In this document: positions 948 through 27,802 of the stretch, in pieces | Layout: each line of letters opens with the position of its first letter | Numbering within the stretch: position 1 is the stretch's first letter | NCBI GenBank assembly: GCA_902386135.1 | Contig: CABMIB010000093.1 | Location: 1 to 32,777, forward strand | Direction of reading: 5' to 3' | DNA length: 32,777 bases | Origin: an uncultured archaeon | GTDB lineage: Archaea > Halobacteriota > Methanosarcinia > Methanosarcinales > Methanoperedenaceae | The notes under the pieces: model-generated | The model's input: only the letters and a program-made list of their open reading frames with translations | What the model was told of the DNA's origin: nothing | Database searches by the model: none | Translations under genes and position numbers: made by a program

Positions 948-1799
<852 letters not shown>

Positions 1800-1803
1800 G
1801 AAC

Positions 1804-2121: not shown

Positions 2122-2129
2122 GTGAGATC

Positions 2130-2507: not shown

Positions 2508-2524
2508 AATTGGAGACTTGAAAT

Positions 2525-5212: not shown

Positions 5213-5221
5213 GGTGAAAAC

Positions 5222-5497
5222 ATGGAATACATTACTGGAATAACAGCTTCAGGTGGAAGTTGGATTCCAACCTTTGTTGTGAGCAGCAACATAAACAACT
5301 GCGGATGTTGCGGCAAGTGCTTCAAGATATGCGGACGCAGTGTTTTTGAATATATCGACCATCCTAACAGCGATGACCTGTGCGGAGCAAAGGTCATGAC
5401 CGTAGCACACCCTGAGAACTGCATCGGCTGCGGGGCATGCGCGCGAGGATGCCCGAAGAAGAATATCGTATGCGGACCGAAGGTCAGGAGCAATTAG
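5222..5497 (+). CDS. Nif-specific 2x[4Fe-4S] ferredoxin (FdxB-like)
   Basis: A 91-residue ferredoxin resembling the nif-linked ferredoxin III (FdxB) family: it opens with a GGSWIPTFV segment like that family's GxxWxPxFV. Cluster 1 is Cys-x2-Cys-x2-Cys-x3-Cys in NCGCCGKCFKICG, with one extra cysteine between the first two ligands; cluster 2 is CIGCGACARGCP. The central KVMTVAHPENC matches the KVMTI-xx-xxNC pattern of the family. The start follows GAGGTGA 10 bp after nifK, so it belongs to the operon and is a candidate electron donor to NifH or a helper in cofactor assembly. Confidence 0.85.
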   Translation: MEYITGITASGGSWIPTFVVSSNINNCGCCGKCFKICGRSVFEYIDHPNSDDLCGAKVMTVAHPENCIGCGACARGCPKKNIVCGPKVRSN

Positions 5498-13034: not shown

Positions 13035-13081
13035 TTCTCATAGATGAGAATCATCTATTTTCTGTAATCAGAAATGAGAAT
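13035..13081. repeat. ATGAGAA repeats and candidate left attachment site
   Basis: Three copies of ATGAGAA lie here: inverted at 13035-13041, direct at 13044-13050 and 13074-13080. The first two form TTCTCAT-AG-ATGAGAA. GATGAGAATCAT at 13043-13054 recurs exactly at 27791-27802 near the other end of the element. The block is 50-90 bp upstream of the integrase, so it may be an attachment core, integrase arm sites or an operator. A 12-bp match alone is weak evidence. The remainder of 12935-13128 shows no gene. Confidence 0.4.
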
Positions 13082-13128
13082 AACCTTATAACCATGTAAA
13101 GCGTATAAGCCGCCAGTGAGAACCTTAC

Positions 13129-14277
13129 ATGGACGTACTACAGAAATACTTAAAAGACTTAAGCGTTGCGGGATATTCCAGAAATTCGATAGTTTATAAG
13201 CAGAAGTTTCTGGAACAAATGAGTAGGATAAAGAAAATTGAGACATGGACAAAGGACGACGTCGACAATTACCTTTATCAAATATCACAAACGAAAGCAA
13301 GGGCTACGGTTGAGAACGCTAAGACCTGTTTTGTCAGTTTCTTTAAGAGGATAGGACAACCTGAGAAAGTCTCTCATTTAACGATTAAGATGGTCGAGGG
13401 AACACTCAGGCGGGATGAGTTATTAACTTATGATGACGTTATAAAGTTGATAGATGCCACTGATAGCGTATTATATAAAGCTTTATTGATTTTCTTGTTT
13501 GAATCCGGTGCAAGAATAAACGAAGTTCTTGCGGTCAAGGTTTCAGATGTTATGGAAACCGACATTGGGATGGTTGTGCATGTTCACCAGACCAAGTACG
13601 GCGTTGATAAACGACGCGTAATATGTATCTACTCAGCCAGTTACATCCGCAACCTTTTAACATACTTAAATCTTGGAAAAGGTGATTATCTATTTCCGAG
13701 TCCTAAGAACCTGAAAAGAAATCATGGTCAACCAGTTTCGTTAAATTCTCAGTTTGTGCCGCACCTTTTTAGGGAAATTGCTAAAAAAGCAGGAATTGAA
13801 AAACCAGTGAACCCTCACGCCTTCCGTCATGCTTGCGCCACAAATTTAGTCTTGCAGGAATATCCAGAAAGCCTGATAAAGAAAGGTCTCGGATGGAAAC
13901 CAACAAGCAGGGCAATAAATCGCTATACTCACGTTGTAGATGATGATTTCATTAATGCAAGACTTGAAAAAGAAGGGGTTGTTCAGCCACACGAAAAGCC
14001 ACAACAGCAGATTAAATTAGCAGAACCAATCCAATTTTCTGACGATAAAACCATCCTTCGTAGGCTTGTTGTCGAGAATCAAGAACTACAAAAAAAGGTA
14101 GCCGATACGGAAAAATTGGCGGCTGATTTTGAAGAAATGAAAAAAGCATTCGGCTTGATGCGAAACACAGATGGGAACTATACGTTTAATGCTGTACTTA
14201 AAGAACTGCCGCAGAAGAAAAAGAAGGATGGGGTAATCGGGCTTATCTCATCGGAGAAGCTTGATGATGGAAAATAA
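13129..14277 (+). CDS. Tyrosine recombinase/integrase
   Basis: A 382-residue XerC/D-like integrase. Residues 1-85 are the SAM-like core-binding domain (TKDDVDNYLYQISQ). The catalytic domain has Arg129 (ESGARINEVL), a Lys near 156 (HQTKYGVDKR), His230 and Arg233 (NPHAFRHACAT), and Tyr266 (AINRYTHV). The usual second His/Trp position is Trp256 (LGWKPTS). About 100 extra C-terminal residues hold a coiled coil (RRLVVENQELQKKVADTEKL) and a basic tail. The gene is intact, unlike the split integrases of SSV-type viruses. A TATA-like CTTATAA lies about 40 bp upstream. It probably inserts and excises the element spanning to about 27.8 kb. Confidence 0.92.
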   Translation: MDVLQKYLKDLSVAGYSRNSIVYKQKFLEQMSRIKKIETWTKDDVDNYLYQISQTKARATVENAKTCFVSFFKRIGQPEKVSHLTIKMVEGTLRRDELLTYDDVIKLIDATDSVLYKALLIFLFESGARINEVLAVKVSDVMETDIGMVVHVHQTKYGVDKRRVICIYSASYIRNLLTYLNLGKGDYLFPSPKNLKRNHGQPVSLNSQFVPHLFREIAKKAGIEKPVNPHAFRHACATNLVLQEYPESLIKKGLGWKPTSRAINRYTHVVDDDFINARLEKEGVVQPHEKPQQQIKLAEPIQFSDDKTILRRLVVENQELQKKVADTEKLAADFEEMKKAFGLMRNTDGNYTFNAVLKELPQKKKKDGVIGLISSEKLDDGK

Positions 14278-14289
14278 CTTTAGCAGGAA

Positions 14290-15265: not shown

Positions 15266-15335
15266 AAGGTCGGTCGATGGAAAAAAAGAACCACAGGCAT
15301 TTGGAGATACAATTATTTATGACTCTTTCTCTTAA
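14896..15335 (+). pseudogene. Decayed ParB-domain gene, C-terminal part
   Basis: The frame from about 14896 to the TAA at 15333-15335 reads RYLIAKEFGWTEIETVIRDD, then ITQFIILANATRQKSGELRK and KRKKEGNRRGGGDHKS, a recognisable ParB/sulfiredoxin-like segment (GHRRYLIAKELG..., ILANxxRQ) and the Gly-rich stretch after it. No start codon is available, and a stop (TAG about 14893) lies just upstream. KPILL, the expected preceding strand, is present in a different frame (about 14878-14892), so a short deletion has broken the gene. A serine/lysine-rich tail follows. It is probably an older partition or regulatory gene replaced by the intact ParB at 16248. Confidence 0.5.
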
Positions 15336-15540
15336 GATTCCCACCTAATGCAAACCCAAAAACAGCAGATATACTATACCCGAATACAGAAGTCCATATA
15401 TTTATATTACCGACATTGATTCCTGCGGAAGAAATCAAAATCGCAATTAATGAAGCAACTGCAATAATAATAATAAATAACACACAAAACACACCAAGAA
15501 CTCCATGTGGGTCTTCATAACAGACTTTCATCAATTCCAT
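15313..15540 (-). CDS. Small two-helix membrane protein
   Basis: 75 residues from ATG 15540, preceded on the minus strand by GGGGTG at good spacing. There are two hydrophobic segments (VLGVFCVLFIIIIAVASLIAIL and the AGINVGNINIW to VFGFALGG region) and a basic end. An earlier in-frame ATG at 15567 lies inside the upstream gene. The start overlaps the end of the zinc-ribbon gene, so the two are coupled. No family recognised. Its 3' end overlaps the tail of the decayed ParB frame on the other strand. Confidence 0.6.
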   Translation of the reverse strand: MELMKVCYEDPHGVLGVFCVLFIIIIAVASLIAILISSAGINVGNINIWTSVFGYSISAVFGFALGGNLKRKSHK

Positions 15541-15719
15541 TTTATAAACACCCCACATCTTGGGCATTGAGGTATTCCGTTTTGAAGAGTCAAACTACAA
15601 TTAGGACATCGAGGAATTGGTTTATTCCGAAGTATTTTACTTAAAAGCCACAATTCACCTAAAAAAATCGCAATCCATCCGATGACATATCCTATATTTT
15701 CATCGTGTTTGTTGGTCAT
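15531..15719 (-). CDS. Small membrane-anchored zinc-ribbon protein
   Basis: 62 residues: one membrane helix (IGYVIGWIAIFLGELWLLSKIL) then a zinc ribbon CPNC-x11-CPRC. ATG 15719 has GGTGA upstream; an in-frame GTG at 15731 is less likely. It forms a two-gene operon with the membrane protein at 15540. Function unknown; the layout suggests a small membrane pair carried by the element. Confidence 0.6.
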   Translation of the reverse strand: MTNKHDENIGYVIGWIAIFLGELWLLSKILRNKPIPRCPNCSLTLQNGIPQCPRCGVFIKWN

Positions 15720-15913
15720 TATCCTTTTCACCCAATCTTTTTATCGTTCAAACATCTGTTACTACTGTTATATTATACTTTTGTCTTACTATTTATGTAA
15801 TGTATCATACAAAAGTCATTTACAATTTATCTGACGATTTTTGACAAAATATTCTATCAGACGCAGACTTTACAGAACCTATCGGAAGGTTGCGCCGCGC
15901 TAATTGATTGTAT

Positions 15914-16030
15914 GGTTTTTAGTTTTTTAGTATGTACTTATGTACGTACAAAACCAAGCCTTTACAGAACTTATTTTAATCACTATATACTCAATAACAC
16001 CTTATTTTGTTTTGTACGTATCTAAAAACC
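15914..16030. repeat. Nested dyads in the divergent intergenic region
   Basis: TACGTACAAAAC (15943-15954) and GTTTTGTACGTA (16009-16020) are perfect 12-bp inverted copies, bracketed by GGTTTTTAG (15914-15922) and CTAAAAACC (16022-16030), also inverted. CTTTACAGAAC is repeated directly at 15868-15878 and 15960-15970. The region 15720-16080 is AT-rich, gene-free and lies between divergent transcripts, directly before the RHH/ParB genes. A centromere-like site, operator or origin is possible. Confidence 0.5.
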
Positions 16031-16086
16031 TTTAAAACGAAAAAGCTTTTATCTTATGCAGTAATCATGGATAATCGGCGATAATT

Positions 16087-16245
16087 ACGTCGAAAAACGT
16101 ATTGTTACGACTGAATCAGAGGCAATATACTGCCCTGAAATCAGAGGCAGACCGGAAAGGATTGCCTCTTGCTACGACTGTTAAACACCTGCTTCATGAG
16201 AGGTTCATGGAAACAGACCCCGAATATCAGAAAAAAGGGGTGTGA
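16087..16245 (+). CDS. Small RHH-like protein without a normal start codon
   Basis: The frame ending with TGA at 16243-16245 reads SKNVLLRLNQRQYTALKSEA, then DRKGLPLATTVKHLLHERF, a typical ribbon-helix-helix DNA-binding fold of about 50 residues. No ATG/GTG is available upstream before a stop at 16072; the natural first codon would be ACG 16087, ATT 16084 or ATA 16081, with TTG 16102 as a fallback that cuts the strand. A TATA-like CTTTTATCTT at 16046-16055 lies at leaderless spacing from 16081-16087. Either a rare start is used or the gene lost its ATG. The stop overlaps the start region of parB. Confidence 0.5.
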   Translation, partial: TSKNVLLRLNQRQYTALKSEADRKGLPLATTVKHLLHERFMETDPEYQKKGV

Positions 16246-16247
16246 CC

Positions 16248-17264
16248 ATGATAGGGGAGTGCATACAGATACCTGTTGGAAAGCTAAAACCGAATAGCTA
16301 CAATCCAAACGAAATGAGTAATGAGGATTTTAATAGTCTGGTAGATAGCATTGCGAACGCTGGCTTTCTCTCCACTAATCCCCTATTGGTCAGACCAATA
16401 GCACCAGTAAAAAACAGTGAATATGAATATGAAATCGTTGATGGCGAACACAGATGGAAAGCATGTACGCAGTTGGGTATAAAAGAAGTACCCTGCGAAG
16501 TGCGGGAAATGTCCGACCTCGAAGCACACAGGCATTGCGTTATCCTGAATAAAGACAGGGGCGCACTCGGTTATTTCAAACTATCGAAGCTGTTCAACGA
16601 GGATTACGATACATACAGCAGGGACGGCAAAAACCAGGAATGGATAGGACAACAGTTCGGGTTTAAACAGAATACCGTATCAGAGATATTGAAGATACAT
16701 GAGAGGTTAAAAAGTATCGACATGTCGATACTTTCATCCTATTCCAATCGGGATTTGATAATGTTAGCCCGTGTTCGCAATGACAGATTCCGCGAAGCAT
16801 TGGTGACATGGGCTGTTGGGATACCTTCTTCGGAGATTCAGGATGCCGCCAGTCGGTGCAATAAATTATCGGACTACATTGATGAAAAAACAAAGGATGT
16901 TGAATACAGGAATGTCTGTTATGGCTTTCTTCTCTATGGTAACATAATATTTGATGTGCCGTCTGTGGACACTCTCAAAAAGGCGGTTGATACCCTCTTG
17001 GATAATGATTTTCTCATACTTTGTACTCCAGATAATACATTCCTTGTCAGGACGGCTGATAAATACCAGCCGAACTGGCGCAAAGGGGTAAAAATAACTG
17101 CTGAAACCATAAGAAAAATAGAACTTTGTATATCGGAAAAGTTCGATATACTCGAATCTGCAAATAAACATGTTTGCGAACGGTGCGGCTATATGAAATG
17201 GTGGCTTGAAACCATTGCTATATACCAACAACATGACTCAACAGTTCCAGTTGTTGGTGCGTAA
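16248..17264 (+). CDS. ParB-like nuclease-domain protein
   Basis: 338 residues. Residues about 5-110 form a ParB/Srx domain: IPVGKLKPNSYNPNEMSNED, then YEIVDGEHRWKACTQLGIKE with the GEHR motif. Residues about 135-175 are an HTH (EWIGQQFGFKQNTVSEILKIH). The C-terminal half is unrecognised, ending with a possible metal site CERCGYMKWW. ATG 16248 is preferred over GTG 16242 because GGGGTG lies just upstream. With the RHH gene before it, a partition or replication-control role is likely, but no ParA ATPase gene is seen, so a regulator of transcription is an alternative. Confidence 0.78.
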   Translation: MIGECIQIPVGKLKPNSYNPNEMSNEDFNSLVDSIANAGFLSTNPLLVRPIAPVKNSEYEYEIVDGEHRWKACTQLGIKEVPCEVREMSDLEAHRHCVILNKDRGALGYFKLSKLFNEDYDTYSRDGKNQEWIGQQFGFKQNTVSEILKIHERLKSIDMSILSSYSNRDLIMLARVRNDRFREALVTWAVGIPSSEIQDAASRCNKLSDYIDEKTKDVEYRNVCYGFLLYGNIIFDVPSVDTLKKAVDTLLDNDFLILCTPDNTFLVRTADKYQPNWRKGVKITAETIRKIELCISEKFDILESANKHVCERCGYMKWWLETIAIYQQHDSTVPVVGA

Positions 17265-17287
17265 ACAAACCGACCGACTATGAACTT

Positions 17288-17328
17288 TTTTCAGCTTTAT
17301 CACCTCACGAATAATATTAATGTGCATA
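17288..17328 (+). promoter_or_regulatory. Shared promoter of RHH gene 1 (leaderless spacing)
   Basis: TTTTCAGCTTTAT at 17288-17300 recurs exactly at 22512-22524, in both cases 26-27 bp before the ATG of a related RHH gene. That is the distance from an archaeal TATA box to the transcription start, so both mRNAs are probably leaderless. Confidence 0.5.
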
Positions 17329-17453
17329 TGAAACGCCGTATAAACATTACTATTGAACCGAAAGTTCTGGAAACCGTAGATAGGGAACGCGGGCTTATTA
17401 AACGGTCTACGTTCCTTGAAAATCTTATAAAATTGAGGTACGGTATAAAATAA
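17328..17453 (+). CDS. CopG/RHH family DNA-binding protein 1
   Basis: 41 residues, MKRRINITIEPKVLETVDRE followed by RGLIKRSTFLENLIK: a beta strand and two helices of the ribbon-helix-helix fold. It is closely related to the protein at 22551 (shared KRST-x2-ENLIK). An in-frame ATG at 17280 would add 16 residues but would place the conserved promoter element inside the gene. Probably a dimeric repressor or partition-type DNA binder of the element. Confidence 0.75.
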   Translation: MKRRINITIEPKVLETVDRERGLIKRSTFLENLIKLRYGIK

Positions 17454-17463
17454 TCGGATTGTT

Positions 17464-17613
17464 ATGAAAAACGGAAATTATATGGAAGGCAGGCGGGAGA
17501 ATTGGAATCAAACAGCCGCCTGCGTGGTCGATGGGTTCAAACCCGAAGAACTTAAAAAGCCGGTACGAAGCGGATTTTCTATCGGTTACAGGGGGTTGGA
17601 ACGCTATGAATAG
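17464..17613 (+). CDS. Small unrecognised protein
   Basis: 49 codons (MKNGNYMEGRRENWNQTAAC to GYRGLERYE). It starts 10 bp after the RHH gene and its stop overlaps the ATG of the next gene (ATGAATAG), consistent with coupled translation. No family recognised; coding status rests on layout only. Confidence 0.4.
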   Translation: MKNGNYMEGRRENWNQTAACVVDGFKPEELKKPVRSGFSIGYRGLERYE

Positions 17614-17881
17614 ATACCACACACGTACATATAAACCTGATAGCCGCCCGCAATTCTTCAATAAAATAATTAATGTGTTGCAAGAACGGGGCTATCGGAA
17701 AGGTAGATTATATTATTTTTTAGAATGCCGACGGGTACTATGTCCCTACTTCGGCTTATCCGCAGAATACTTACACACCCTATATCACGAGATGGAGCAA
17801 GACGGGTTAATAATAATCCATAATTATAAAGGAATTGAAATAGTACACAAAAGTCGGTCGGCTTCGGGGGCGGAAGAATGA
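17606..17881 (+). CDS. Small putative winged-helix protein
   Basis: 91 residues from ATG 17606, which has GGGGGTTGG upstream; an in-frame ATG at 17531 would overlap the preceding small gene. RPQFFNKIINVLQERGYRKG, LYYFLECRRVLCPYFGLSAE and LHTLYHEMEQDGLIIIHNYK suggest three helices and a wing. The stop overlaps the replicase ATG, so it is probably a replication or copy-control partner. It shows a faint likeness to the protein at 24298 (GY-x2-G-x2-Y-x2-L pattern). Confidence 0.6.
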   Translation: MNRYHTRTYKPDSRPQFFNKIINVLQERGYRKGRLYYFLECRRVLCPYFGLSAEYLHTLYHEMEQDGLIIIHNYKGIEIVHKSRSASGAEE

Positions 17882-20475
17882 ACGATATTCTGAATGCAGT
17901 TAAAGATTACACAGCCCGCGGGTGGGTGTGTCACCCTTTATCAAGCCCGAAGGACAACGGCAATAGCCCTGGAAAAAAACCATTATTACCCGGTTGGCAA
18001 AATCTACAGAAAACGCCTGATGATATTGAAAGGTTTATCACGCAAGGATGCAACATCGGGCTTGTCTGTGGGGCAGTGAGTGGGATAACTGCGTTGGATA
18101 TGGATTCAATGTTTTTTGCCGATGACTTATTCAACGGTTTTGATACTGAGGTCAAGACGCTGAGAAGTAGCCGAACTAAAGGCAGAGGTCATATTTATTT
18201 CAAGTATAACCCGAACTTGCCATCCCAAAAACACCACGACCTCGGTATTGAGATATTAAACGATGGAAATAATATTGTTTTGCCTCCATCAACCCATCTA
18301 AGCGGAGATACCTATCGTTGGATTGACCAAACCGTGCCCCTTATCGAAATGCCGAAAGCACTTGAAGAACGGATTATCAACTTGTTCAAAACGGAAACGG
18401 AACTAAGACACATACTAAGCAAGTGCAGGCATTGTTTCCGCGCCTTGATTAAAAGACGGCACGAGATTGATTGGCATGGCGGCGAGGGGAGGCAGTATAT
18501 GTTAGCTGTATGTACCGACCTGGTAGCGAAGGGTGCTACTGAGAATCATATCAAAATGTTCGCCAAGCTTGTTTACGGAACTGGATACGATGAATCAGCG
18601 ACCTTAGAGGAGTACCGGAACATTGACAAAAACAAAACATGGACATGCGACAAACTGAAAGAAAATCTACCTACTTATATCGATTTAACACAGTGTGAGA
18701 AATGTAATGAGAGGCGCGAGGCGTTTAAAGAAAAGGATAAAGAAAAAGTGAAAGAACGTGAGGTAGAAGTACCGCAACATATATCGCAACATATTAAAGA
18801 CAAAGCCGATGAAGTAATGACTACGGGCGATCCTGTTAGATTCATTTTGGATACTATCCAAACCATGCACACAGGGGACGAAGGGACGGCTAAGGCATTG
18901 CTTGTATCTGTTGGTTGCCAAAGTGTAGGGAACAGCGAGGGGCTACAACCAAAGTTAAGCGGTGACTCCGGTATGGGCAAAAGCCACGTCTGCAAAGCTA
19001 TGGTACACGTAACTCCAAAAGAATATCTTCTGACGGGTGCAGTTAGCGATAAAGCACTATTCTATATGAAAATATGCCCAGGGACAGTGTACTATTGTGA
19101 TGACGTTACGCCCTCGGAGAATTTACAAAGTGTTATTAAGCAGTCCACGACCCATTACCGGACGGGCACAAAGTATCATACCGTTCATGACAAAAAATTG
19201 GTAGATATGTTTATTCCACCTCGGCTGGCTTGGTGGATAACAAGCGTTGATGACGATGTATCCATGCAGGTACTTAATCGCCAATTTAACCTCGAAGTGG
19301 ACGAATCCACAGATCAAGACTTAAAAGTAGTTCAATTCCACTCTGATTTGGCTGTAAAAGGCGAAGTGGAGTTTCCCGAATCTGATGATGTTGAAGTATG
19401 CCGTGAAATATTACGGCAGGTTAAGCAGAAACTCTATTCCGTTAAAATCCCGTTCGCCAATGATATTCAATGGAAAGACCCTTCAAACCGACGGAACTAC
19501 TCGATGTTCCTCGACATGATAAAGTCATTCGCAGTATTGCGGTTTAGACAAAGACAGGAAGTAGATGGGTATCTTATCGCGACTATAGATGATTACGAAG
19601 ATGCCCGCGAATTGTATTGTTCCCGCGCGAGCAATATGCGGCTGAAACTAAATAAAATGGAAATGGATGTATGCCGGACAATCCACGAACTAACGCAATT
19701 GCAAGGATGGTGCGATTCAAAAGCCATCGAACGGCACATGAACTTATCACAACAGCGGGTTCATCAACTCATTCATGGGAGGAAAGACCGGAATGAATCG
19801 GGGTTGCTTAGTAAGGTTAAAGGATTACATCACGAACTCCAAAATGTTAAAGATGGTGACCGTTACACCAACAAGAACACATATACGTTGGATAGCTTTA
19901 GCTTGGTTGGAAGCTACGATTCCGTAGTTGAATTATCGGAGAAAATCAAAGAACAGTATCGGTCGTCACAATACAACCACTACAACCACACTACAACCGT
20001 AAATGGTTGTAGTGTAAAACCAGATACAGTAGATATAAAAATATATGATAATTATATCACTACTACCACTACAACCAATAAGAGTGTACACCAAACAGAT
20101 TCATATATTTTTGTTAGTAAGTCTGAAAAATCTTCTTTGTTTGCTTCTACCCCGAAAATTGGTTGTAGTGGTAGTAGTGTGGCTACTGATAGCGAAAATG
20201 TGGTAGTAGTGCGTGGTAGTAGTGGTTGTAATGGTTCTACCGATAACGAAAAACGTGGTAGTAGTGTGATTTTGAGTTCAAAAACTGATTACACCAACAT
20301 TGCACTTCATGTAAACGAATGGTTATCAGAATCTTATGGGGTTACTTACACGGGGTCGAATATCAAAGCAAGCATTGACTGGTTTATTGATAACGTTACG
20401 GCAAAATTCGATCTTCCGAGAGAGTCCGCGGCAAAGATAGTAAAAGATGCTTTCCGCAATCGGGGGTGGGTATGA
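17878..20475 (+). CDS. Primase-polymerase/helicase replication protein
   Basis: 865 residues. Residues 1-170 are a bifunctional primase-polymerase domain: GKKPLLPGWQ, NIGLVCGAVSGITALDMDS (metal-binding Asp74/Asp76), GRGHIYFKY (His105) and NNIVLPPSTHLSGDTYRW. A cysteine-bearing linker (SKCRHC, CEKC) follows. Residues about 330-560 form an ATPase/helicase core with Walker A GDSGMGKS (362-369) and Walker B VYYCDD (404-409). A winged helix lies around 635-690 (SKAIERHMNLSQQRVHQLIHG). Residues about 697-797 are low complexity (Thr, Ser, Asn, Val) because the DNA there holds iteron-like repeats; a folded helical end closes the protein. It should prime and unwind element DNA. Its start overlaps the previous stop. 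Confidence 0.85.
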   Translation: MNDILNAVKDYTARGWVCHPLSSPKDNGNSPGKKPLLPGWQNLQKTPDDIERFITQGCNIGLVCGAVSGITALDMDSMFFADDLFNGFDTEVKTLRSSRTKGRGHIYFKYNPNLPSQKHHDLGIEILNDGNNIVLPPSTHLSGDTYRWIDQTVPLIEMPKALEERIINLFKTETELRHILSKCRHCFRALIKRRHEIDWHGGEGRQYMLAVCTDLVAKGATENHIKMFAKLVYGTGYDESATLEEYRNIDKNKTWTCDKLKENLPTYIDLTQCEKCNERREAFKEKDKEKVKEREVEVPQHISQHIKDKADEVMTTGDPVRFILDTIQTMHTGDEGTAKALLVSVGCQSVGNSEGLQPKLSGDSGMGKSHVCKAMVHVTPKEYLLTGAVSDKALFYMKICPGTVYYCDDVTPSENLQSVIKQSTTHYRTGTKYHTVHDKKLVDMFIPPRLAWWITSVDDDVSMQVLNRQFNLEVDESTDQDLKVVQFHSDLAVKGEVEFPESDDVEVCREILRQVKQKLYSVKIPFANDIQWKDPSNRRNYSMFLDMIKSFAVLRFRQRQEVDGYLIATIDDYEDARELYCSRASNMRLKLNKMEMDVCRTIHELTQLQGWCDSKAIERHMNLSQQRVHQLIHGRKDRNESGLLSKVKGLHHELQNVKDGDRYTNKNTYTLDSFSLVGSYDSVVELSEKIKEQYRSSQYNHYNHTTTVNGCSVKPDTVDIKIYDNYITTTTTTNKSVHQTDSYIFVSKSEKSSLFASTPKIGCSGSSVATDSENVVVVRGSSGCNGSTDNEKRGSSVILSSKTDYTNIALHVNEWLSESYGVTYTGSNIKASIDWFIDNVTAKFDLPRESAAKIVKDAFRNRGWV
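19972..20266. repeat. Iteron-like decamer array, candidate replication origin
   Basis: Inside the replicase gene the decamer GGTTGTAGTG occurs as its complement CACTACAACC at 19978, 19989 and 20067 and directly at 20005 and 20161, with GGTTGTAATG at 20224. The variant GGTAGTAGTG occurs at 20170, 20202, 20215 and 20257 and inverted at 20058. Complements dominate the left side and direct copies the right, around an AT-rich core (about 20015-20160, including ATATAAAAATATATGATAA). Clustered iterons with an AT-rich core are the usual look of a plasmid or viral origin. Confidence 0.6.
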
Positions 20476-20511
20476 TACTATGAACCATAACCATAACCAG
20501 GAGGTCATATA

Positions 20512-21006
20512 ATGCCAAAGAAATGTAGTGTTTGTGAACACATACAGAGCAAAGAGATTAATGAGGCGCTGTTGGATGGTCAGGCGTACCGCATAATTGC
20601 GGCACAGTTCGGTACATCAATAGCATCGTTGCAGCGACACAAGGAACATTTATCGACCAAGATGGTAATAGCACCTGGCGCGCAGGACGTAGCTGCGGCG
20701 AACATTTTACTTAATCAGGTCAAGGACTTGCAGCAGAAGTCATTGGACTTATTAGCTAAGGCAGAACAGGCAGGTGACCTTAAGACAGCCCTGCAAGGCG
20801 TAAGGGAGGCGCGAGGTTGCCTTGAATTGCTGGCTAAATTGGAAGGACAGTTGGCGCAGGAAGGAACTATCAACATCACTATCGCACCGGAATGGCTGGA
20901 ATTACGAACTACCATAATGCAAGTACTTGAGCCTTATCCAGAAGTGAGGACGCGGCTTGTAGAGGCGCTGGCGCTGCGGGAGGTACAACCAGAACATGCT
21001 CAGTAA
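20512..21006 (+). CDS. Terminase small subunit-like protein
   Basis: 164 residues. The N-terminus has CSVCEH and an HTH (AYRIIAAQFGTSIASLQRHK), followed by a long helical stretch (LNQVKDLQQKSLDLLAKAEQ) that would oligomerise, as in DNA-recognition subunits of viral terminases. A strong AGGAGGT sits at about 20500. Its last codons overlap the start of the ATPase gene. The assignment relies on domain style and on the neighbouring large-subunit genes. Confidence 0.65.
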   Translation: MPKKCSVCEHIQSKEINEALLDGQAYRIIAAQFGTSIASLQRHKEHLSTKMVIAPGAQDVAAANILLNQVKDLQQKSLDLLAKAEQAGDLKTALQGVREARGCLELLAKLEGQLAQEGTINITIAPEWLELRTTIMQVLEPYPEVRTRLVEALALREVQPEHAQ

Positions 21007-21751
21007 TGATTTGAGGCTGGCTCTGGACGCCGTGGCATTCGCACGGGAAGCTCTGGGTTTTGAACCTGACCCTTGGCAGGCTAACGTACTTCGTTGGAAC
21101 GGCAAAAGATTATTATTAAATTGTTGTAGGCAATCAGGTAAATCATCAACTGCGGCAGTATTAGCACTACATCGGGCATTGTATCATCCTGGTAGTTTAA
21201 TCCTTGTTGTCTCCCCTTCTTTGCGGCAATCCGGTGAATTGTTCAGAAAGGTAACGGACTTTTTAAGCAATATCAAGCTTGAACAGCAACCTTTACTAAA
21301 AGAAGACAACAGGCTATCCTTGACACTGGATAATAATAGTCGTATCGTGTCCCTACCATCTACTGAAACGACCGTCCGAGGTTTTTCCGGTGCATCATTA
21401 ATAATAGAAGATGAGGCATCGCGCGTACCGGATGAGTTATATTATGCAGTTCGACCAATGCTCGCCGTTAGCGGCGGCAGGTTAATCTTAATGAGTACAC
21501 CTTTCGGCAAACGCGGTCATTTCTTCCATGAGTTCGTAGAAGGCGGTGAGGGGTGGGAAAGAATATCTATCCCTGCTTCGGAATGCCCCCGAATAAGCCA
21601 GGACTTTTTGAAAGAAGAGCAAGCGACAATGCCGGATTTTTTTTTCAGGGCTGAATACTTATGTGAGTTTACGGAAACAGTTGACCAGGTATTCAGCTAC
21701 GAACAAGTGCAGGGGGCTTTATCTGACGATATTGAACCTTTACAATTTTAG
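20996..21751 (+). CDS. Terminase large subunit, ATPase domain only
   Basis: 251 residues. An adenine-binding region (DPWQANVLRW), Walker A LLNCCRQSGKSS, Walker B SLIIEDEASRVPDE and the coupling motif LMSTPFGKRG match the packaging motor of tailed viruses. The protein ends with FRAEYLCEFTETVDQVFSYE, exactly where the ATPase domain usually joins the nuclease domain. The nuclease domain is a separate gene 11 bp downstream. The ATG overlaps terS. There is no frameshift site visible at the junction: a stop, a gap and a fresh ATG separate them. Confidence 0.82.
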   Translation: MLSNDLRLALDAVAFAREALGFEPDPWQANVLRWNGKRLLLNCCRQSGKSSTAAVLALHRALYHPGSLILVVSPSLRQSGELFRKVTDFLSNIKLEQQPLLKEDNRLSLTLDNNSRIVSLPSTETTVRGFSGASLIIEDEASRVPDELYYAVRPMLAVSGGRLILMSTPFGKRGHFFHEFVEGGEGWERISIPASECPRISQDFLKEEQATMPDFFFRAEYLCEFTETVDQVFSYEQVQGALSDDIEPLQF

Positions 21752-21762
21752 AGGATGATTAT

Positions 21763-22422
21763 ATGGACAAACAAAAAACATCAATAATAGGCATTGATTT
21801 GGGTCAAACGGCGGATTACACTGCCATCACAGTCATTGAAAAGCATCAGCAAGAAACCGACGGAAAACACATTAATCTTTATGATGTTCGATATCTGGAA
21901 CGTGTGCCCCTCAATACCTCATATCCTTCGATAATCGACAAGGTAAAAAGGATTTACAACAGTTTGTGTAAAGATACTGATAAAAAGCCAATCCTGGTTC
22001 TTGACGTTACAGGCGTTGGTCGTGCTGTCTTCGATAGTTTTGTACAAGAGAAACTTAACCCCGTTGGCATTTCTATTCACGGCGGGAACACTGTTACCAA
22101 AGATGGCAACATTTACAATGTCCCTAAGCGCGACCTTGCCGGAGTGCTACAAGTACTGTACCAAAGTGCAAGGATCAAGGTAAGTTCAAAGCTGAGGGAT
22201 GCTCAGACACTTAACAACGAACTTTTGAATTTCAAGATAAAAATCAACATCGGTACAGGTCACGACAGCTACGAAGCCTGGCGGGAAAGCATTCACGATG
22301 ATTTGGTGCTGTCGGTCGCTTGTGCGGCTTGGTATGGTGAGAAGGCGGTTGGAAACTCCGAAAGATATATGCGTTTTGTGGTAGGTGGCTCACGCCACGG
22401 TTTTAAGCGGTGCGGTTGGTGA
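21763..22422 (+). CDS. Terminase large subunit, RNase H-like nuclease domain as a separate gene
   Basis: 219 residues with the RNase H-fold acidic residues: Asp12 (IIGIDLGQTADYTAI), Asp81 (ILVLDVTGVGRAVFD) and Asp179/180 (ESIHDDLVLSVACAAWYG). This is the headful-cleavage nuclease half of TerL. GAGGATGATT precedes ATG 21763. Together with the ATPase gene it rebuilds a complete TerL of about 470 residues. A RuvC/resolvase-like nuclease is the alternative, but the TYEAWRE-HDD end is terminase-like. Confidence 0.78.
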   Translation: MDKQKTSIIGIDLGQTADYTAITVIEKHQQETDGKHINLYDVRYLERVPLNTSYPSIIDKVKRIYNSLCKDTDKKPILVLDVTGVGRAVFDSFVQEKLNPVGISIHGGNTVTKDGNIYNVPKRDLAGVLQVLYQSARIKVSSKLRDAQTLNNELLNFKIKINIGTGHDSYEAWRESIHDDLVLSVACAAWYGEKAVGNSERYMRFVVGGSRHGFKRCGW

Positions 22423-22428
22423 ATATAT

Positions 22429-22551
22429 ATGGTGCATTGCCGTCATAGGCGTACTAAGAGCAAGAGAAAACGCCGTCGGTCTGAAGAAAACATGAAAAAA
22501 TCAGGGAACGATTTTCAGCTTTATTATAAGTTCCTACATACAAATATGTAA
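22429..22551 (+). CDS. Small very basic peptide gene
   Basis: 40 codons starting MVHCRHRRTKSKRKRRRSEE, ending TAATG with the next RHH start inside it. No clear ribosome site. It contains the promoter element of RHH gene 2 near its 3' end, so it may be an accidental frame; the high Arg/Lys content could also mean nucleic-acid binding. Confidence 0.3.
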   Translation: MVHCRHRRTKSKRKRRRSEENMKKSGNDFQLYYKFLHTNM

Positions 22552-22694
22552 TGAAGACCCGCATCTGCATTACCCTTGAAAATCCAGTTGTGGAGAAACT
22601 TGATACTCTCCGCAGATTGGCGAAACGGTCTACATACATCGAAAACCTGATAAAACAGGTTGCAAAGACTGATACAAATATAGAAACGGACTGA
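22551..22694 (+). CDS. CopG/RHH family DNA-binding protein 2
   Basis: 47 residues, MKTRICITLENPVVEKLDTL then RRLAKRSTYIENLIKQ, a ribbon-helix-helix paralogue of the protein at 17328. Upstream TTTTCAGCTTTAT (22512-22524) is the same promoter element as in front of that gene, again 26 bp before ATG. The two proteins may compete for or share operators. Confidence 0.72.
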   Translation: MKTRICITLENPVVEKLDTLRRLAKRSTYIENLIKQVAKTDTNIETD

Positions 22695-22698
22695 TGTT

Positions 22699-23010
22699 AT
22701 GAATGGTGACTCAGCGACAGCAAAACAAATCCACAGGCAGGATTGGTTATCTGACCTGGACAATCAGTTATCAGCCTTATGGGGCGCACATATTCGAGTT
22801 ATAGATAGCCAAACAGGTCTCATGACACTTGAAGAGGTACTGGATTATTACAAGGCGATTGGCTTCTTAAGGCAGGCTGTATCGGACTATGAGTATTGGC
22901 GGAACAAGCCAACCGACTTGTTAGTAGCGCGGAAATATCCGCAGGTTGTGGAACTGCATGATAATAAAAACAAAACAGTCAGATACGGCATACTACAAAT
23001 TATCTTATGA
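22699..23010 (+). CDS. Unrecognised element protein
   Basis: 103 residues, mainly helical, no membrane segment (SDLDNQLSALWGAHIRVIDS, LMTLEEVLDYYKAIGFLRQA, DYEYWRNKPTDLLVARKYPQ). It starts 4 bp after the RHH gene. The position after the terminase genes is where a portal gene would stand, but at 103 residues it cannot be one. Function unknown. Confidence 0.65.
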   Translation: MNGDSATAKQIHRQDWLSDLDNQLSALWGAHIRVIDSQTGLMTLEEVLDYYKAIGFLRQAVSDYEYWRNKPTDLLVARKYPQVVELHDNKNKTVRYGILQIIL

Positions 23011-23040
23011 TTAAAAAATTAAAAAAGGAGATTGAAATAC

Positions 23041-23343
23041 ATGCAAGATAAAATCGTAAGAGGGGCGCACGACCGTGTGCTTATGATGCCGCTCGAAGTG
23101 GCAGACACCGCGTGCCCGCACAAGAAAAAGGAACAGACGGAAACGCAGTTGACACCAGAGTTAGTGGTTCGACGAAACGAGTTAGGGCAATTGGTACTTG
23201 ATGCCGATAAGCGTCAGGGGCTTAAGGAAGAGTTTGAGAGAGGTTTGGAACTTGATGATGTTTTGTATCCTGTGACAGACCCGCAGATGGTCGCCCATGT
23301 CAGGAAAAACGCCGGTGTTGTTACCAGGGTGGTAGAATGGTAG
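23041..23343 (+). CDS. Unrecognised element protein
   Basis: 100 residues from ATG 23041, with AAAAAGGAG about 12 bp upstream; a TTG at 23032 is in frame but less likely. The sequence is charged, with one Cys-Pro-His group (TACPHKKK) and no recognisable fold. Its stop overlaps the start of the next gene, so the pair is coupled. Confidence 0.65.
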   Translation: MQDKIVRGAHDRVLMMPLEVADTACPHKKKEQTETQLTPELVVRRNELGQLVLDADKRQGLKEEFERGLELDDVLYPVTDPQMVAHVRKNAGVVTRVVEW

Positions 23344-23861
23344 GAACAGTAGAAAAACAAGATGCAGGGGACGATGCAGAGACCATACATATAATAATAA
23401 AAAACCCTGAAACCGCACAGAACGACCTTGCCTACCTTGCGAAAAAGTTAGGGCTTGACATTGACCAATTAAGGCAGGAGCGTATTGAAAAGGAACATCA
23501 GGAACGGGAACAAGAAATCAACAGGCGATTGGAAAAGAAGAACAAAGCAAGACAAGCGCAGGAAGCCGCGCTTGAAAAAGAGTTCCTGGATAATTACGGA
23601 AGCCGTGATGGTCATTATTTGATGACCGTGGGTGGCAAGCGTATCCATAAATTGAGGAGCTTTGAAGAAATCACATGTCCACAATGCGGCGTTTTAATGG
23701 ATATTCGCGGGCTTGGTCGGGCAATAGCCGAATGGCGGGGTTATAGATTTGATATAACTGGTAATCCTCTTTCAGTATGGGTCGGCATCCCTGCGAGGGA
23801 AGATGGTGTTAAGTGCGGCAACGGTCATAATACAAAAATCACTACGCAGTACATTATATAA
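23337..23861 (+). CDS. Coiled-coil/zinc-ribbon-like element protein
   Basis: 174 residues. Residues about 35-85 are a strongly charged coiled coil (RIEKEHQEREQEINRRLEKK). The C-terminal half has a possible zinc site made of CPQCG and CGNGH, a layout seen in small nucleic-acid-binding proteins. It overlaps the previous stop. Function unknown. Confidence 0.65.
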   Translation: MVGTVEKQDAGDDAETIHIIIKNPETAQNDLAYLAKKLGLDIDQLRQERIEKEHQEREQEINRRLEKKNKARQAQEAALEKEFLDNYGSRDGHYLMTVGGKRIHKLRSFEEITCPQCGVLMDIRGLGRAIAEWRGYRFDITGNPLSVWVGIPAREDGVKCGNGHNTKITTQYII

Positions 23862-23889
23862 TTTTTAATTACAGGAAGTGAAAAAAATC

Positions 23890-24246
23890 ATGGTTGATAC
23901 TTTTGAAACCGAGGAAAGAAAACGCAGACTTGCGAGGGGGATTGAAAACTTATGGTCTGATATTCAAGAAGTCCAAGACCTTCAAGCAAGCAACCGAAAG
24001 AAGGAAGAAGAACTCATTGAACTTCAAGCTGGTTTAATACGGAAACGGACAGCCCTACAAGACGCTGAAGTCGCGTTGGAAAGAATGGAGAGGTTAGAAC
24101 GCCGATTATCCGCAATCGAGAACAACCGCCGGAATCTTGCAGGTGATTCATCAAGACCATCCTTTCTTGAATATGTGCCTGAAGAACCCGACCCTGAATC
24201 GCGTCCATATGTTGATAGGCGGAGGGGTGAAATTTACAAATACTAA
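23890..24246 (+). CDS. Coiled-coil element protein
   Basis: 118 residues from ATG 23890, with AGGAAGTGA upstream (a GTG at 23878 is in frame). Residues about 10-90 are a long coiled coil (IQEVQDLQASNRKKEEELIE, ALQDAEVALERMERLERRLS); the tail is proline/acid rich (YVPEEPDPESRPYVDRR). Shape recalls a scaffold or tail-length fragment, but nothing identifies it as structural. Confidence 0.62.
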   Translation: MVDTFETEERKRRLARGIENLWSDIQEVQDLQASNRKKEEELIELQAGLIRKRTALQDAEVALERMERLERRLSAIENNRRNLAGDSSRPSFLEYVPEEPDPESRPYVDRRRGEIYKY

Positions 24247-24297
24247 CCTTCAGTGGATTTACGCGATAATGAAAAGTATTTTCTGGGGTGGTCGATG

Positions 24298-24903
24298 ATG
24301 AAATTATCACAGGACGGCGAAGACTACATAATGTCCAAGAAGGAACGGCGAAAATTTGCTACTGAACTTCTGGACGCTGTCAATAAATATTTTATGGATG
24401 TTGATACGCCTGAGAGGAAAGCGCAAAAAGAGGAGCAGGTAAGGCGACATGCAGCTTCCTTAGACCACTTTAACCGAACAGGTCAGTTATTACAACATCC
24501 TTCGCCTTCTCCCGCTTTAGCTGAGCAAAGGTTGAGAGAGTATTTGAAGGGGCAAATAGAGATTATTAAACCCGCAGGAATTCGGCTATCAATGGCTCTT
24601 GACCGGATTATCCGGCATTATGTTGAGCAGGGATATCAGCGCGGGTATTTCTATGATTGTTTATTAAAAAATACTTGCTCTCAACAGCGGGGTCTACCCC
24701 ATGAGGTTGTGAGAACAGCGGCACAGCGGCTTCAAGCCACAGGGTTACCACCTGCTCTCAAAGACCTGATAATTTCTGAGGTTCAGGACATTATAAACAC
24801 TGTCGAGGTCTATGAACGTGAGGATATTCGTGCTCTCGGAATACAAGGCGCAGCAGACAGAATTTATTTTCGAGCGTTTAAATCAGGTTTGATGGTGCAG
24901 TAA
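24298..24903 (+). CDS. Unrecognised helical element protein
   Basis: 201 residues from ATG 24298 (GGGGTGG 7 bp upstream; ATG 24295 and GTG 24253 also in frame). Soluble and helical. Residues about 95-150 (LDRIIRHYVEQGYQRGYFYD, then LPHEVVRTAAQRLQATGLPP) weakly resemble the small winged-helix protein at 17606. It is the last gene before the 10-bp repeat array. Function unknown. Confidence 0.62.
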   Translation: MKLSQDGEDYIMSKKERRKFATELLDAVNKYFMDVDTPERKAQKEEQVRRHAASLDHFNRTGQLLQHPSPSPALAEQRLREYLKGQIEIIKPAGIRLSMALDRIIRHYVEQGYQRGYFYDCLLKNTCSQQRGLPHEVVRTAAQRLQATGLPPALKDLIISEVQDIINTVEVYEREDIRALGIQGAADRIYFRAFKSGLMVQ

Positions 24904-24916
24904 CGCAGGTTATGAT

Positions 24917-24972
24917 GTATGGTAACGTATGGTCGGATTGTGGTGCGGTAATGTGCGGTGTTGTGCAGTAAG
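24917..24972. repeat. Five 10-bp tandem repeats, centromere- or operator-like
   Basis: GTATGGTAAC, GTATGGTCGG, then after 6 bp GTGCGGTAAT, GTGCGGTGTT and GTGCAGTAAG stand in line, sharing GT-N2-GGT or close to it. Spacing near one helical turn places all copies on the same DNA face, as at sites bound by RHH partition proteins. It lies just after the last gene of the replication/packaging block. The rest of 24904-25214 shows no gene; ATGCGTATT is repeated at about 25127 and 25147. Confidence 0.5.
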
Positions 24973-25214
24973 CGATCATAGCTTCAGAAGCAATCCAACC
25001 GCTATCGGTAAGACTACGATAAGATTCCGTAACGGAAAATGTCCCCGTAAATCGTTTATAGGATGTTTTCGTTAGGTAGCTAATGGTTTTATACCTGCAA
25101 TATCAGGGGGAACTGTCTTACTAAACATGCGTATTACAAAAAAATTATGCGTATTTTTTTCAATTATATAGGGAAAACCTTTTAAATTACGATGGAATTA
25201 ATAATTGAATTAAT

Positions 25215-25874
25215 ATGTCATTTAGTGATTTAATCAAAATAATCAAAAAAATTGATGATAGGCATGAGGAATATTATGTTCTATTTACTGAAATAATTGG
25301 TAAATTACAGCCCATAGCCTTTTTGATTTCAGCATCACTGGTTTTAGCAGTATTTTTTTTTAACATTGATAAAAATAGCATTTCTGGAATTTACGCACTA
25401 TTTGCGAGTGTCTTGTTTTTTTTTGCATATTTGGGATTAGCATTATATAAAATAACAAATTATAAACTGGCATTTTATTGGGGATTATCTTTAATCGTAA
25501 TCAGTGTGCATTTAATTTACAATTCATTTAATGATGCTTTTACCAGAATTATCAGCATTGAGAACATAAATATTAATATGCTGGTTTTTTATGTTCTTTT
25601 TTCGACACTTATTTTAATGACAAAATTTACATTGGACATGGCTAATAAAGATAGTCTCTGGTATAAAAGATGTAACATTGCATTGTATATTATAACTTTG
25701 ATAATTATAATATACATTCCCCTTGGATTATCTTTTCATCTCACATTTATTCCATTATTCTTGGCAACTTTATTATTAGCGTTAATTATGATAATTTCGC
25801 TAAAAATTCCAATTTCCAAAAAATTAAAAAATAGACTGCTGGGGGATATATCAGAAGATTTTTCATATCAATAA
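25215..25874 (+). CDS. Polytopic membrane protein, unknown
   Basis: 219 residues with about six membrane segments (residues about 31-50, 57-78, 84-102, 120-139, 152-172, 177-196) after a cytosolic charged N-terminus. AT-rich DNA with many ATT/ATA/TTA codons, unlike the genes to its left. No family recognised. There is no ribosome site, and TTTTAAATT about 35 bp upstream suggests a leaderless or near-leaderless message. It may be cargo of the element. Confidence 0.65.
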   Translation: MSFSDLIKIIKKIDDRHEEYYVLFTEIIGKLQPIAFLISASLVLAVFFFNIDKNSISGIYALFASVLFFFAYLGLALYKITNYKLAFYWGLSLIVISVHLIYNSFNDAFTRIISIENININMLVFYVLFSTLILMTKFTLDMANKDSLWYKRCNIALYIITLIIIIYIPLGLSFHLTFIPLFLATLLLALIMIISLKIPISKKLKNRLLGDISEDFSYQ

Positions 25875-26054
25875 CCCCATTAATAGAAAATATTGATGAG
25901 TATTAGCTTTTTCGACTATATTCATTTAATGAGAATGACTAAGCGAGGGATGGGATGCGATATGGCGCATTATCTCATATACAATAATTGACCGTTGATA
26001 TGTTGTTATAGTTAGTTTTTTATAACTGCATAACAATTTAAAGTTGTTGCATAT

Positions 26055-27380
26055 ATGGATGAAGAACCGAAAGAATCAATGGATAAGAATTGTCCGCTTT
26101 CAAGTAAGGAATGGATAATTGTTTTGAACAGTGAAATCAATACGCTAAAGTATCCAGATTTTCTGCCGCTTATGAATGTTTTTCTAATAGTCATGATTGC
26201 ATATATTACAATCATGGTAAATGCTTCTCTTGACTATAACAGATGTATTGCATCTAATTTATCTAATTCAAATTGTAAATTACCTGCCTCCCTTACCTTT
26301 TTATTTGTTAATTTGTATCCCTCTGTGGCTATGGCATTAGCCGTTTTAATAGCTATCGGATTTATAAATTTCTTAATAGGATACTTTAAGGCTGATAGAC
26401 GAATAAAGGCTTGTAAAATCATCAGGGAAAGCATAATTCGTGGTGAAACTGACTCAAATAATATACGTAAAAAATGGGAAAAAATTAATATGAAAAATTG
26501 GAACATTAAAAAATATTTGTCTTTAATTGTACTTTTTATTGCGTTATTGTTTGTTGCTCTTTTGATTTTCAATTATCAATGGTTGACTTCAAATTATCAA
26601 TGGTTGATTTCCAATATTATAGAAATAGCAGTGGCAGCCGGAACGTTATTCCTTGCTTATATCGCTTACCGACAGATGCAAGATAGCAATGAGAAAATTC
26701 ATACTTCGAATCTGAAAGATATGTTACGATTATGGCAGCAAAATTTGAGTTCGAATAAAGTTGCTCCAGCCGAAGAAACATTTACCTTTGGTAGGTTAGA
26801 TTCATATGCCCCATCATCTCTTAGCGATATAGAGAATCATGCGCTTTTTGAGGATATTTTTCATCACTTTCCATACCTTAGAGATTTCTGGAATGAATTT
26901 AAAACTTTAAGCATCACTTACAGTTTAGAACGACAGAGGTTAATTGATAAGATACAAGAGCATATCAAACAAAAATTTAAAGAGCGCAATTTCGATTTAG
27001 GATCGGAGACTGGAAAAGGATTTTCTTTATCAGTTTACAGAGAAACCATTTGTATAGCCAAAGGTAAAAGTAGCAGTTATGATTATTTCACCGAAAGAAT
27101 AAGTGTTAAAAATGTTATAAAAACCCGATTGATTTATGGTTATATGGGGACTGGAAACGGTTATATTTTAGCAGAATTAGAGTCAGAAGAAATGGAAGGG
27201 ATAAAAAATATCCATAAAGAAATGATTAAGGAGTGCAAGGAACTTTATCTCGATGATATTAAGAAAATAATTGAATTGGAAAACAAAACAAGGGTTTGTC
27301 ATAATAAATTAGAATCTATGTTGGATAAAATAAGTTATTGTATGGTATTTCCTCAAATGGATTGTAAATTTGTCAAATAA
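26055..27380 (+). CDS. Four-helix membrane protein with large cytosolic domain
   Basis: 441 residues. Membrane segments at about 37-55, 89-111, 153-173 and 185-204 are followed by about 235 soluble residues with SNLKDMLRLWQQNL, HALFEDIFHHFPYLRDFWNE and a charged helical end. A 21-bp in-frame duplication gives NYQWLTSNYQWLIS (residues 173-186). AT-rich like its neighbour, with its own TATA-like TTTTTTATAAC about 30 bp upstream. A membrane anchor plus soluble effector suggests a defence or signalling protein, but no motif proves it. Confidence 0.65.
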   Translation: MDEEPKESMDKNCPLSSKEWIIVLNSEINTLKYPDFLPLMNVFLIVMIAYITIMVNASLDYNRCIASNLSNSNCKLPASLTFLFVNLYPSVAMALAVLIAIGFINFLIGYFKADRRIKACKIIRESIIRGETDSNNIRKKWEKINMKNWNIKKYLSLIVLFIALLFVALLIFNYQWLTSNYQWLISNIIEIAVAAGTLFLAYIAYRQMQDSNEKIHTSNLKDMLRLWQQNLSSNKVAPAEETFTFGRLDSYAPSSLSDIENHALFEDIFHHFPYLRDFWNEFKTLSITYSLERQRLIDKIQEHIKQKFKERNFDLGSETGKGFSLSVYRETICIAKGKSSSYDYFTERISVKNVIKTRLIYGYMGTGNGYILAELESEEMEGIKNIHKEMIKECKELYLDDIKKIIELENKTRVCHNKLESMLDKISYCMVFPQMDCKFVK

Positions 27381-27410
27381 AGTTTAGTTTAATAAATAAT
27401 TATTAATATT

Positions 27411-27668
27411 ATGTACAAAAACGAATATTGTATCCAAGATAACTACCAACATCGTTTTGATGAATTGAGGATTGTTCAAATTTGTGTAAATGTGACTATA
27501 TTTTACCATAACCCCGTACTAAAGCAACAAATATTGCTTAGATTTGGTGCAATAATCGCATATCTGAACAGGATACACGATGAACTGCGGGCAAGGCGAA
27601 GCCGTAGCTGTGTCCTGGCTTACATTGAACCTGATGAAATCAAGAATGACCTATCCTTTTCCCCGTAA
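27411..27668 (+). CDS. Short unrecognised ORF at the right edge of the AT-rich block
   Basis: 85 residues, MYKNEYCIQDNYQHRFDELR onward. Base composition changes within it, from AT-rich to GC-richer at about 27580, so it may span a junction and be a remnant. TCCCC-GTAA-GGGGA at its end forms a hairpin (about 27659-27671). Coding status is doubtful. Confidence 0.3.
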   Translation: MYKNEYCIQDNYQHRFDELRIVQICVNVTIFYHNPVLKQQILLRFGAIIAYLNRIHDELRARRSRSCVLAYIEPDEIKNDLSFSP

Positions 27669-27790
27669 GGGGAGGGGATAGTAATTAATATAGCAGGTTC
27701 GTGTTGTATACACTTAAGGATTACATGGGGCAGTTGAGGGTGTACGAGTTCCAAAAGACAAAAAATAATCATTTATGATGACAGTCAAAT

Positions 27791-27802
27791 GATGAGAATC
27801 AT
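27791..27802. repeat. Candidate right attachment site
   Basis: GATGAGAATCAT matches 13043-13054 exactly and lies in AATGATGAGAATCATT, a dyad. It would place the element at about 13043-27802 (14.8 kb). The stretch 27669-27999 holds no convincing gene other than promoter sequence for the next one. The match is short, so the boundary is tentative. Confidence 0.35.

Follow-up and report, generated by a model that had tools for sequence, protein, structure and literature searches.

What use would a mobile element have for a complete DNA-packaging motor if it had no capsid of its own? This question was raised by contig CABMIB010000093.1 of an uncultured archaeon of the Methanoperedenaceae (assembly GCA_902386135.1), of which we analysed positions 1 to 32,777, hereafter called the window. 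It contained an integrated element of 14.75 kb with genes for the terminase small subunit (TerS) and for a large subunit (TerL) divided into an ATPase and a nuclease protein, followed by a cassette of small genes. Our conclusion was that this element was probably a packaging satellite that exploits a head-tailed virus of archaea, with its own TerS and TerL and a borrowed procapsid. Judging from its gene content, its DNA would be packaged into the particle of another virus.

All three terminase genes named by the first-pass annotation were found in place, the two TerL genes with domain matches (Table 1). The ATPase protein matched phrog_7579, a family described as 'terminase large subunit', and 4zni, a solved phage TerL ATPase domain. 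The family profile of the nuclease protein matched the solved TerL nuclease domains 5m1q, 5m1f and 5tge at about 1e-13, and its acidic residues D12, D81 and D179/D180 were invariant among 14 relatives. TerS had no Pfam or PHROG match and was named from position and homology: it was 35% identical to the open reading frame (ORF) that Thermus phage Riverbug carries directly before TerL, and the naming also leaned on the ORF preceding TerL in Meiothermus phages. A sequencing frameshift as the cause of the split TerL was ruled out, since the split was kept in orthologues (~65-78% identity) and at many loci. The genes for TerS and TerL, with which the element could turn the packaging of a helper towards its own DNA, were present and intact. 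The use of the helper's TerL, characteristic of P4-like satellites and phage-inducible chromosomal islands (PICIs), did not apply here, since the element carried its own TerL ATPase and nuclease.

In the mechanism that we propose, the element would excise and replicate, and TerS would bind a pac site on it. The ATPase and nuclease proteins would come together as a single motor. A tailed virus, either co-infecting or resident, would supply the procapsid, and the motor would attach to its portal and drive the element DNA inside. The satellite would contribute the whole motor, not TerS alone.

The boundaries of the element could be set exactly. The sister genome G008 had the same neighbourhood without the insert: its identity to the window was 91% up to 13054 and resumed at 27791, and the 12-bp core GATGAGAATCAT, which stood at both ends of the element, was present in G008 once. 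Therefore, the element was taken to span 13043-27802, which extends beyond the stretch of 20512-24903 singled out by the first-pass annotation. With these attachment (att) bounds, an integrase and its own replication gene (Prim-Pol), it had the features of a mobile element. The first-pass annotation had listed an integrase, a replicase, ParB and RHH proteins; Pfam and PHROG matches (Phage_integrase, Prim-Pol, ParB_N) confirmed the first three, and the RHH proteins, assigned by eye, gave only weak matches in family searches. No relaxase was among the Pfam matches of the window proteins, although no search aimed at relaxases was made.

The 2.5 kb following TerL encoded ORFs of 47, 103, 103, 174, 122 and 216 aa, none of which matched a portal, protease, capsid or tail family in Pfam or PHROGs. 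Family scans of all ORFs of the element found no structural head gene homologue, whole or broken. Its virion gene set was thus incomplete, as in satellites, with no portal, capsid or tail homologue, and it did not have the portal, protease and major capsid genes of capsid-forming PICIs. In the three Methanoperedens elements taken together (see below), the 441-aa membrane protein of the window was the only ORF large enough for a portal or capsid protein that was left without an assignment. The cassette had been described as holding only short proteins of about 40-200 aa without structural likeness. This was correct with respect to matches, but the last ORF had 216 aa and was possibly a very weak, not significant, minor-head relative. 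The alignment of this ORF to minor-head proteins was suggestive, yet the hidden Markov model (HMM) E-values were 0.36-1.1 and no fold matched, and the assignment was rejected; its predicted structure was all-helical with a pLDDT of 50, too poor to use. Fold and profile checks of the small proteins, which had been proposed earlier, yielded no structural family match: two folds were predicted, both with low confidence, and the one used for a fold search matched nothing. Like the membrane cargo, the small proteins were probably accessory rather than capsid components. PADLOC gave no defence match among the window cargo.

A survey of 31 genomes of the genus revealed the TerL ATPase in two others, Ca. 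Methanoperedens nitroreducens (G014, 78% identity) and G024 (76%). Their elements shared the integrase, a related replicase, TerS and the split TerL, and differed in the small genes. The G014 element was 11.6 kb long with a 17-bp flanking repeat, and the G024 element was about 12.8 kb with approximate ends; a 12-bp repeat flanking the latter sits within host genes and was rejected as its att site. The three elements formed one clade on the TerL tree. There were no stop codons in their terminase genes, and identity across the three was 62-85% for the terminase proteins versus 35-45% for the replicase. The dN/dS was 0.10-0.12 for one pair that was mostly unsaturated, the other pairs being largely saturated at synonymous sites; this measurable pair indicates that the terminase genes are under purifying selection. 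None of the three independent integrations had a structural head cassette. Thus, the comparison of related elements called for by the first-pass annotation returned the same TerS and split TerL set and no structural cassette in the Methanoperedens relatives. The first-pass annotation knew of no such arrangement from methane-oxidising archaea. The gene set was not unique to the window, and no paper among those searched joined Methanoperedens with a satellite and a terminase.

The cargo of these relatives had features of its own. A large ORF of the G014 element was tail-fibre-like (phrog_9942, 3.5e-10). The G024 element (locus L041, 3776-4483) encoded a STIV B116-like or Csx16-like domain (Pfam 3.2e-17, PADLOC 6.1e-15), and type III CRISPR signalling is a possible target of this protein. 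CRISPR spacers gave no clear match to the window element in a DNA search of the genus in which nine candidates per genome were scored.

Broader alignment searches found relatives both among GTDB genome contigs (160) and in IMG/VR (227), and the best 80 of each were kept. The commonest shared neighbours at these loci were TerS, the integrase and the replicase, with nothing downstream broadly common. Portal and minor-head profiles were built from the loci, with members that PHROGs named portals. Where the contig continued for 5 kb or more downstream, a portal/head HMM match was found in 36 of 58 viral contigs versus 1 of 39 genome contigs, a contrast that is an indication alone because it is biased by the makeup of the two collections and novel portals would be missed. 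Almost all relatives carrying portal genes were viral contigs, and the single head-gene-bearing locus among genome contigs was from Methanothrix. Portal matches at two loci (L154 and L187) were discarded, since they proved to be the TerL gene itself. No portal was among the best 25 families listed in a PHROG scan of 87 downstream proteins, from which one weak portal could escape. Portal-bearing and capsid-less loci were intermixed on the TerL tree, whose 134 rows required 23 or more changes between the two states.

Moreover, bounded capsid-less elements were found in Thermovorax (Bacillota, 10.0 kb), Magnetococcales (10.4 kb), Myxococcales (10.0 kb), Thermoleophilia (12.0 kb), Methanoregulaceae (13.0 kb) and Chloroflexota (13.1 kb). 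The repeats bounding most of them looked tRNA-derived. Together with a circular viral contig of 15.2 kb, the relatives that were circular or had their own ends spanned 9-15 kb. Ten large ORFs from the bounded elements were primases, a methyltransferase or without assignment, with no portal among them. One Methanomicrobiales element (L120, 2.6e-119) had a tape-measure match, as did the plasmids pSR11 and pSR14. The att-bounded relatives suggest that satellites of this kind are widespread among archaea and bacteria.

A second capsid-less element in the genome of the window (G000:C65, 2946-15849; L292) was relevant to the choice of helper. It was 12.9 kb long, was bounded by a 23-bp repeat from tRNA-Leu, and encoded an integrase, TerS, a full-length TerL and a tape-measure relative. 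Its TerL was ~75% identical to that of a complete-looking head-tailed provirus in M. nitroreducens (contig C5, ~244001-266500; L293/L294), and the TerS proteins of the pair were 34% identical. This provirus encoded TerS, TerL, a portal (phrog_9232, 2.1e-18), a Mu-F minor head protein (1.3e-19), a major head protein (phrog_10, 8.7e-9) and a tape measure with 31% identity (7.5e-27) to that of the C65 element. The sequences of the pair would be explained if the motor had been kept fit to the helper portal and TerS had adapted to the DNA of its own element, and the pair points to the type of helper. If the window element is a satellite, its DNA is predicted to occur in particles, with a TerL held similar to suit the portal of the helper and a TerS diverged to fit its own pac site; such a pattern of conserved TerL and diverged TerS was already seen in the C65 element and the provirus. 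The nearest portal-bearing relative of the window TerL ATPase, among the best 80 of the 227 IMG/VR relatives, was contig L189 (67%), and a helper with a Mu-like portal would be our guess. Four phage contigs of genome G005 (C36, C38, C66 and C87, one with a masked stretch) carried portals and capsids; they looked bacterial in type, were possibly contamination of that genome, and were set aside when the helper was considered.

Several points weighed against a packaging satellite. The pac site, the helper, excision and the particle are so far predictions from its genes. The absence of a capsid was judged by homology and ORF size, which leaves room for a wholly new coat protein, and the bias in the contrast of genome and viral contigs was mentioned above. 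The genome of the window had no portal or HK97-type capsid in the three families searched; thus, the pairing expected of a head-tailed (Caudoviricetes) provirus was found neither in the window nor in its genome, and no resident helper was recognisable. Finally, an element in G008 (contig C22, 1-9800; L278) had the same replicase and relatives of the window proteins at 22699, 23337, 23878 and 27411, with a methyltransferase-like gene at the terminase position. The small cassette and the backbone were therefore not dependent on packaging, and the terminase can be considered an exchangeable module. The left part of the G008 element was lost at the contig end. At the place of the window protein at 24253, it encoded a protein resembling the Mu-F minor head protein of the provirus (3.3e-8, with a conserved Cys/His motif); the window protein itself had no significant similarity to minor-head proteins.

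Three other explanations were weighed against the same data. It was unlikely that the element was plasmid-like and used its terminase for maintenance (multimer resolution, copy control or DNA cutting) instead of packaging. Small Salinibacter and Streptomyces plasmids with a split terminase of this family, typed as non-mobilizable, would agree with such a role, as would the ParB of the window element and the terminase-less relative in G008. However, TerS was retained along with both TerL domains, and tail genes (tape measure or tail fibre), which are sensible with virions, recurred in L120, pSR11, pSR14, the G014 element and the C65 element. We also know of no established maintenance role for a TerS-TerL set. 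It was quite unlikely that the element was an autonomous small virus whose small proteins form a coat that went unrecognised. The small ORFs did come after TerL, and the 216-aa ORF occupied the place of the minor-head-like protein of the relative, but much of the cassette was present in G008 without a terminase, and no counterpart was detected in the elements of G014 and G024, which shared the terminase. Moreover, the two predicted folds of cassette proteins were of low confidence, the one used for a search matching nothing, and to our knowledge terminase motors occur solely alongside portal-bearing capsids.

Decay of a head-tailed provirus, with the structural genes lost and the terminase kept by chance, was very unlikely. 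The terminase module was of phage origin, the same family standing beside Mu-like head genes in Riverbug and the Meiothermus phages, and the mixture of portal-bearing and capsid-less loci on the TerL tree was compatible with such losses. On the other hand, both ends of the element were intact, family scans of its ORFs found no remnant of a head gene, TerS and both TerL proteins were intact and conserved above the replicase in three independent integrations, and bounded capsid-less elements recurred in several phyla of archaea and bacteria. Thus, the preference of the first-pass annotation for a satellite over a decayed virus was supported.

The packaging satellite that we propose can be considered a variant of phage satellites, a known kind of element, its satellite function being deduced from its genes. 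The closest precedent was ML_43_3791, a 15,770-bp circular genome from a cryoconite virome, placed in group G8 of putative satellite phage-plasmids (Bellas et al. 2015, PMC4490671). According to the passages of that paper on the group, it was assembled from the virus-size fraction, had ParB, terminase, Prim-Pol and integrase genes, and belonged to a group without structural genes; its size and gene list were very close to those of the window element. It differed in that a 'phage tail' and a resolvase were listed and neither a split TerL nor a host was mentioned in these passages, and the likeness was judged from the description. At 14.75 kb, with Prim-Pol, an integrase and no structural genes, the window element agreed with the description of group G8 (<16 kb), by which alone we claim no membership.

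Other known satellites differed in what they bring. PICIs, including Staphylococcus aureus pathogenicity islands (SaPIs), and P4 are integrated elements of 10-15 kb with an integrase, a regulator and a primase that hijack tailed phages, similar to the window element. As described in the relevant passages of PMC10690885, such elements supply TerS, Rpp or capsid-size proteins and rely on the TerL of the helper, whereas the window element carried the whole motor. In the same account, capsid-forming PICIs and the Streptomyces satellites Mulch and Flayer have genes for both TerS and TerL and need a helper, as proposed here, but also encode a portal and capsid, which the window element lacked. Among cultured phages, Riverbug and the Meiothermus phages MMP7 and MMP17 came closest to the window in the TerL ATPase (46-48%) and had TerS directly upstream, but their TerL was a single ORF and their set of Mu-like head and tail genes was complete. 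The Salinibacter plasmids pSR11, pSR14 and pSR31 and a Streptomyces virginiae plasmid had a TerL ATPase of this family, a primase and no annotated capsid; the Salinibacter plasmids additionally had a nuclease gene adjoining the TerL ATPase and a ParA partition gene. In contrast to the window element, these were circular bacterial plasmids, two of them with the tape-measure match. Charybdis elements of marine archaea (PMC12324425) are also small, archaeal and proposed to be a virus or satellite, but have no terminase.

Thus, the satellites known so far either depend on the TerL of their helper or encode a capsid along with the motor. If our reading is true, the helper range of a motor-only element would be set by portal-motor compatibility rather than by capsid making, and a virus-mediated route of gene transfer would be added for archaea that control methane release. 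It is possible, although not yet probable, that these elements form a distinct satellite class in Archaea and Bacteria, with a full motor (TerS and TerL split into ATPase and nuclease), sometimes a tape-measure or tail-fibre gene, and no head genes. Such a class would re-arm helper procapsids with a foreign motor, a new strategy, and its members in methane-oxidising archaea would be the first packaging satellites reported from these organisms.

Table 1. Features of the integrated element, in window coordinates.
Feature	Position	Strand	Basis
Left att core GATGAGAATCAT	13043..13054	none	single copy in G008 empty site
Tyrosine integrase	13129..14277	+	Phage_integrase 6e-24; phrog_1 1.1e-30
Two small membrane / zinc-ribbon proteins	15313..15731	-	Zn_ribbon_9 2e-5 (66-aa ORF, under curated cut-off); transmembrane segments by eye
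Small RHH-like DNA-binding protein	16102..16245	+	weak CopG/DUF6290 similarity alone
ParB-like protein	16242..17264	+	ParB_N 2.1e-16
Small RHH-like protein	17280..17453	+	relative in G014 element
116-aa protein	17531..17881	+	relative in G024 element, 33%, 4.5e-8
Replicase, Prim-Pol primase and helicase-like region	17878..20475	+	Prim-Pol 9e-21; relatives in G014, G024 and G008 elements
TerS	20512..21006	+	position and homology; 63-67% to two Methanoperedens relatives
TerL, ATPase protein	20996..21751	+	Terminase_6N 2.4e-8; phrog_7579 2.6e-62; PDB 4zni 1.6e-12
TerL, nuclease protein	21763..22422	+	phrog_27743 2.2e-36; PDB 5m1q 1.3e-13 (profile); conserved Asp residues
47-aa RHH-like protein	22551..22694	+	resembles ORF at 17280, 60% over 35 aa
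103-aa cassette protein	22699..23010	+	G008 terminase-less element, 24%, 6.7e-5
103-aa cassette protein	23032..23343	+	same place in G008 element, 24% identity, not significant
174-aa coiled-coil and Cys-rich protein	23337..23861	+	G008 element, 40%, 1.7e-31; low-confidence predicted fold
122-aa coiled-coil protein	23878..24246	+	G008 element, 40% over 53 aa
216-aa helical protein; putative truncated minor-head (Mu gpF/SPP1 gp7) relative	24253..24903	+	position match to G008 protein
Low-GC membrane cargo protein	25215..25874	+	no family match; related DNA at other places in G014 and G006
Low-GC membrane cargo protein, 441 aa	26055..27380	+	no significant family match
85-aa protein, right end of element	27411..27668	+	relative in G008 element, 47% over 34 aa
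Right att core GATGAGAATCAT	27791..27802	none	G008 empty-site comparison

Two minor observations were made in the window. Dispersed repeats at 15826-15882 and 25974-26002 recurred often in other Methanoperedens genomes (25-57 bp, ~80-100% identity). To the left of the element, a nitrogenase-like cluster at 975-5497 was recognised by eye, with NifH, two PII-like proteins, a NifD/K-like protein and a ferredoxin-like protein.

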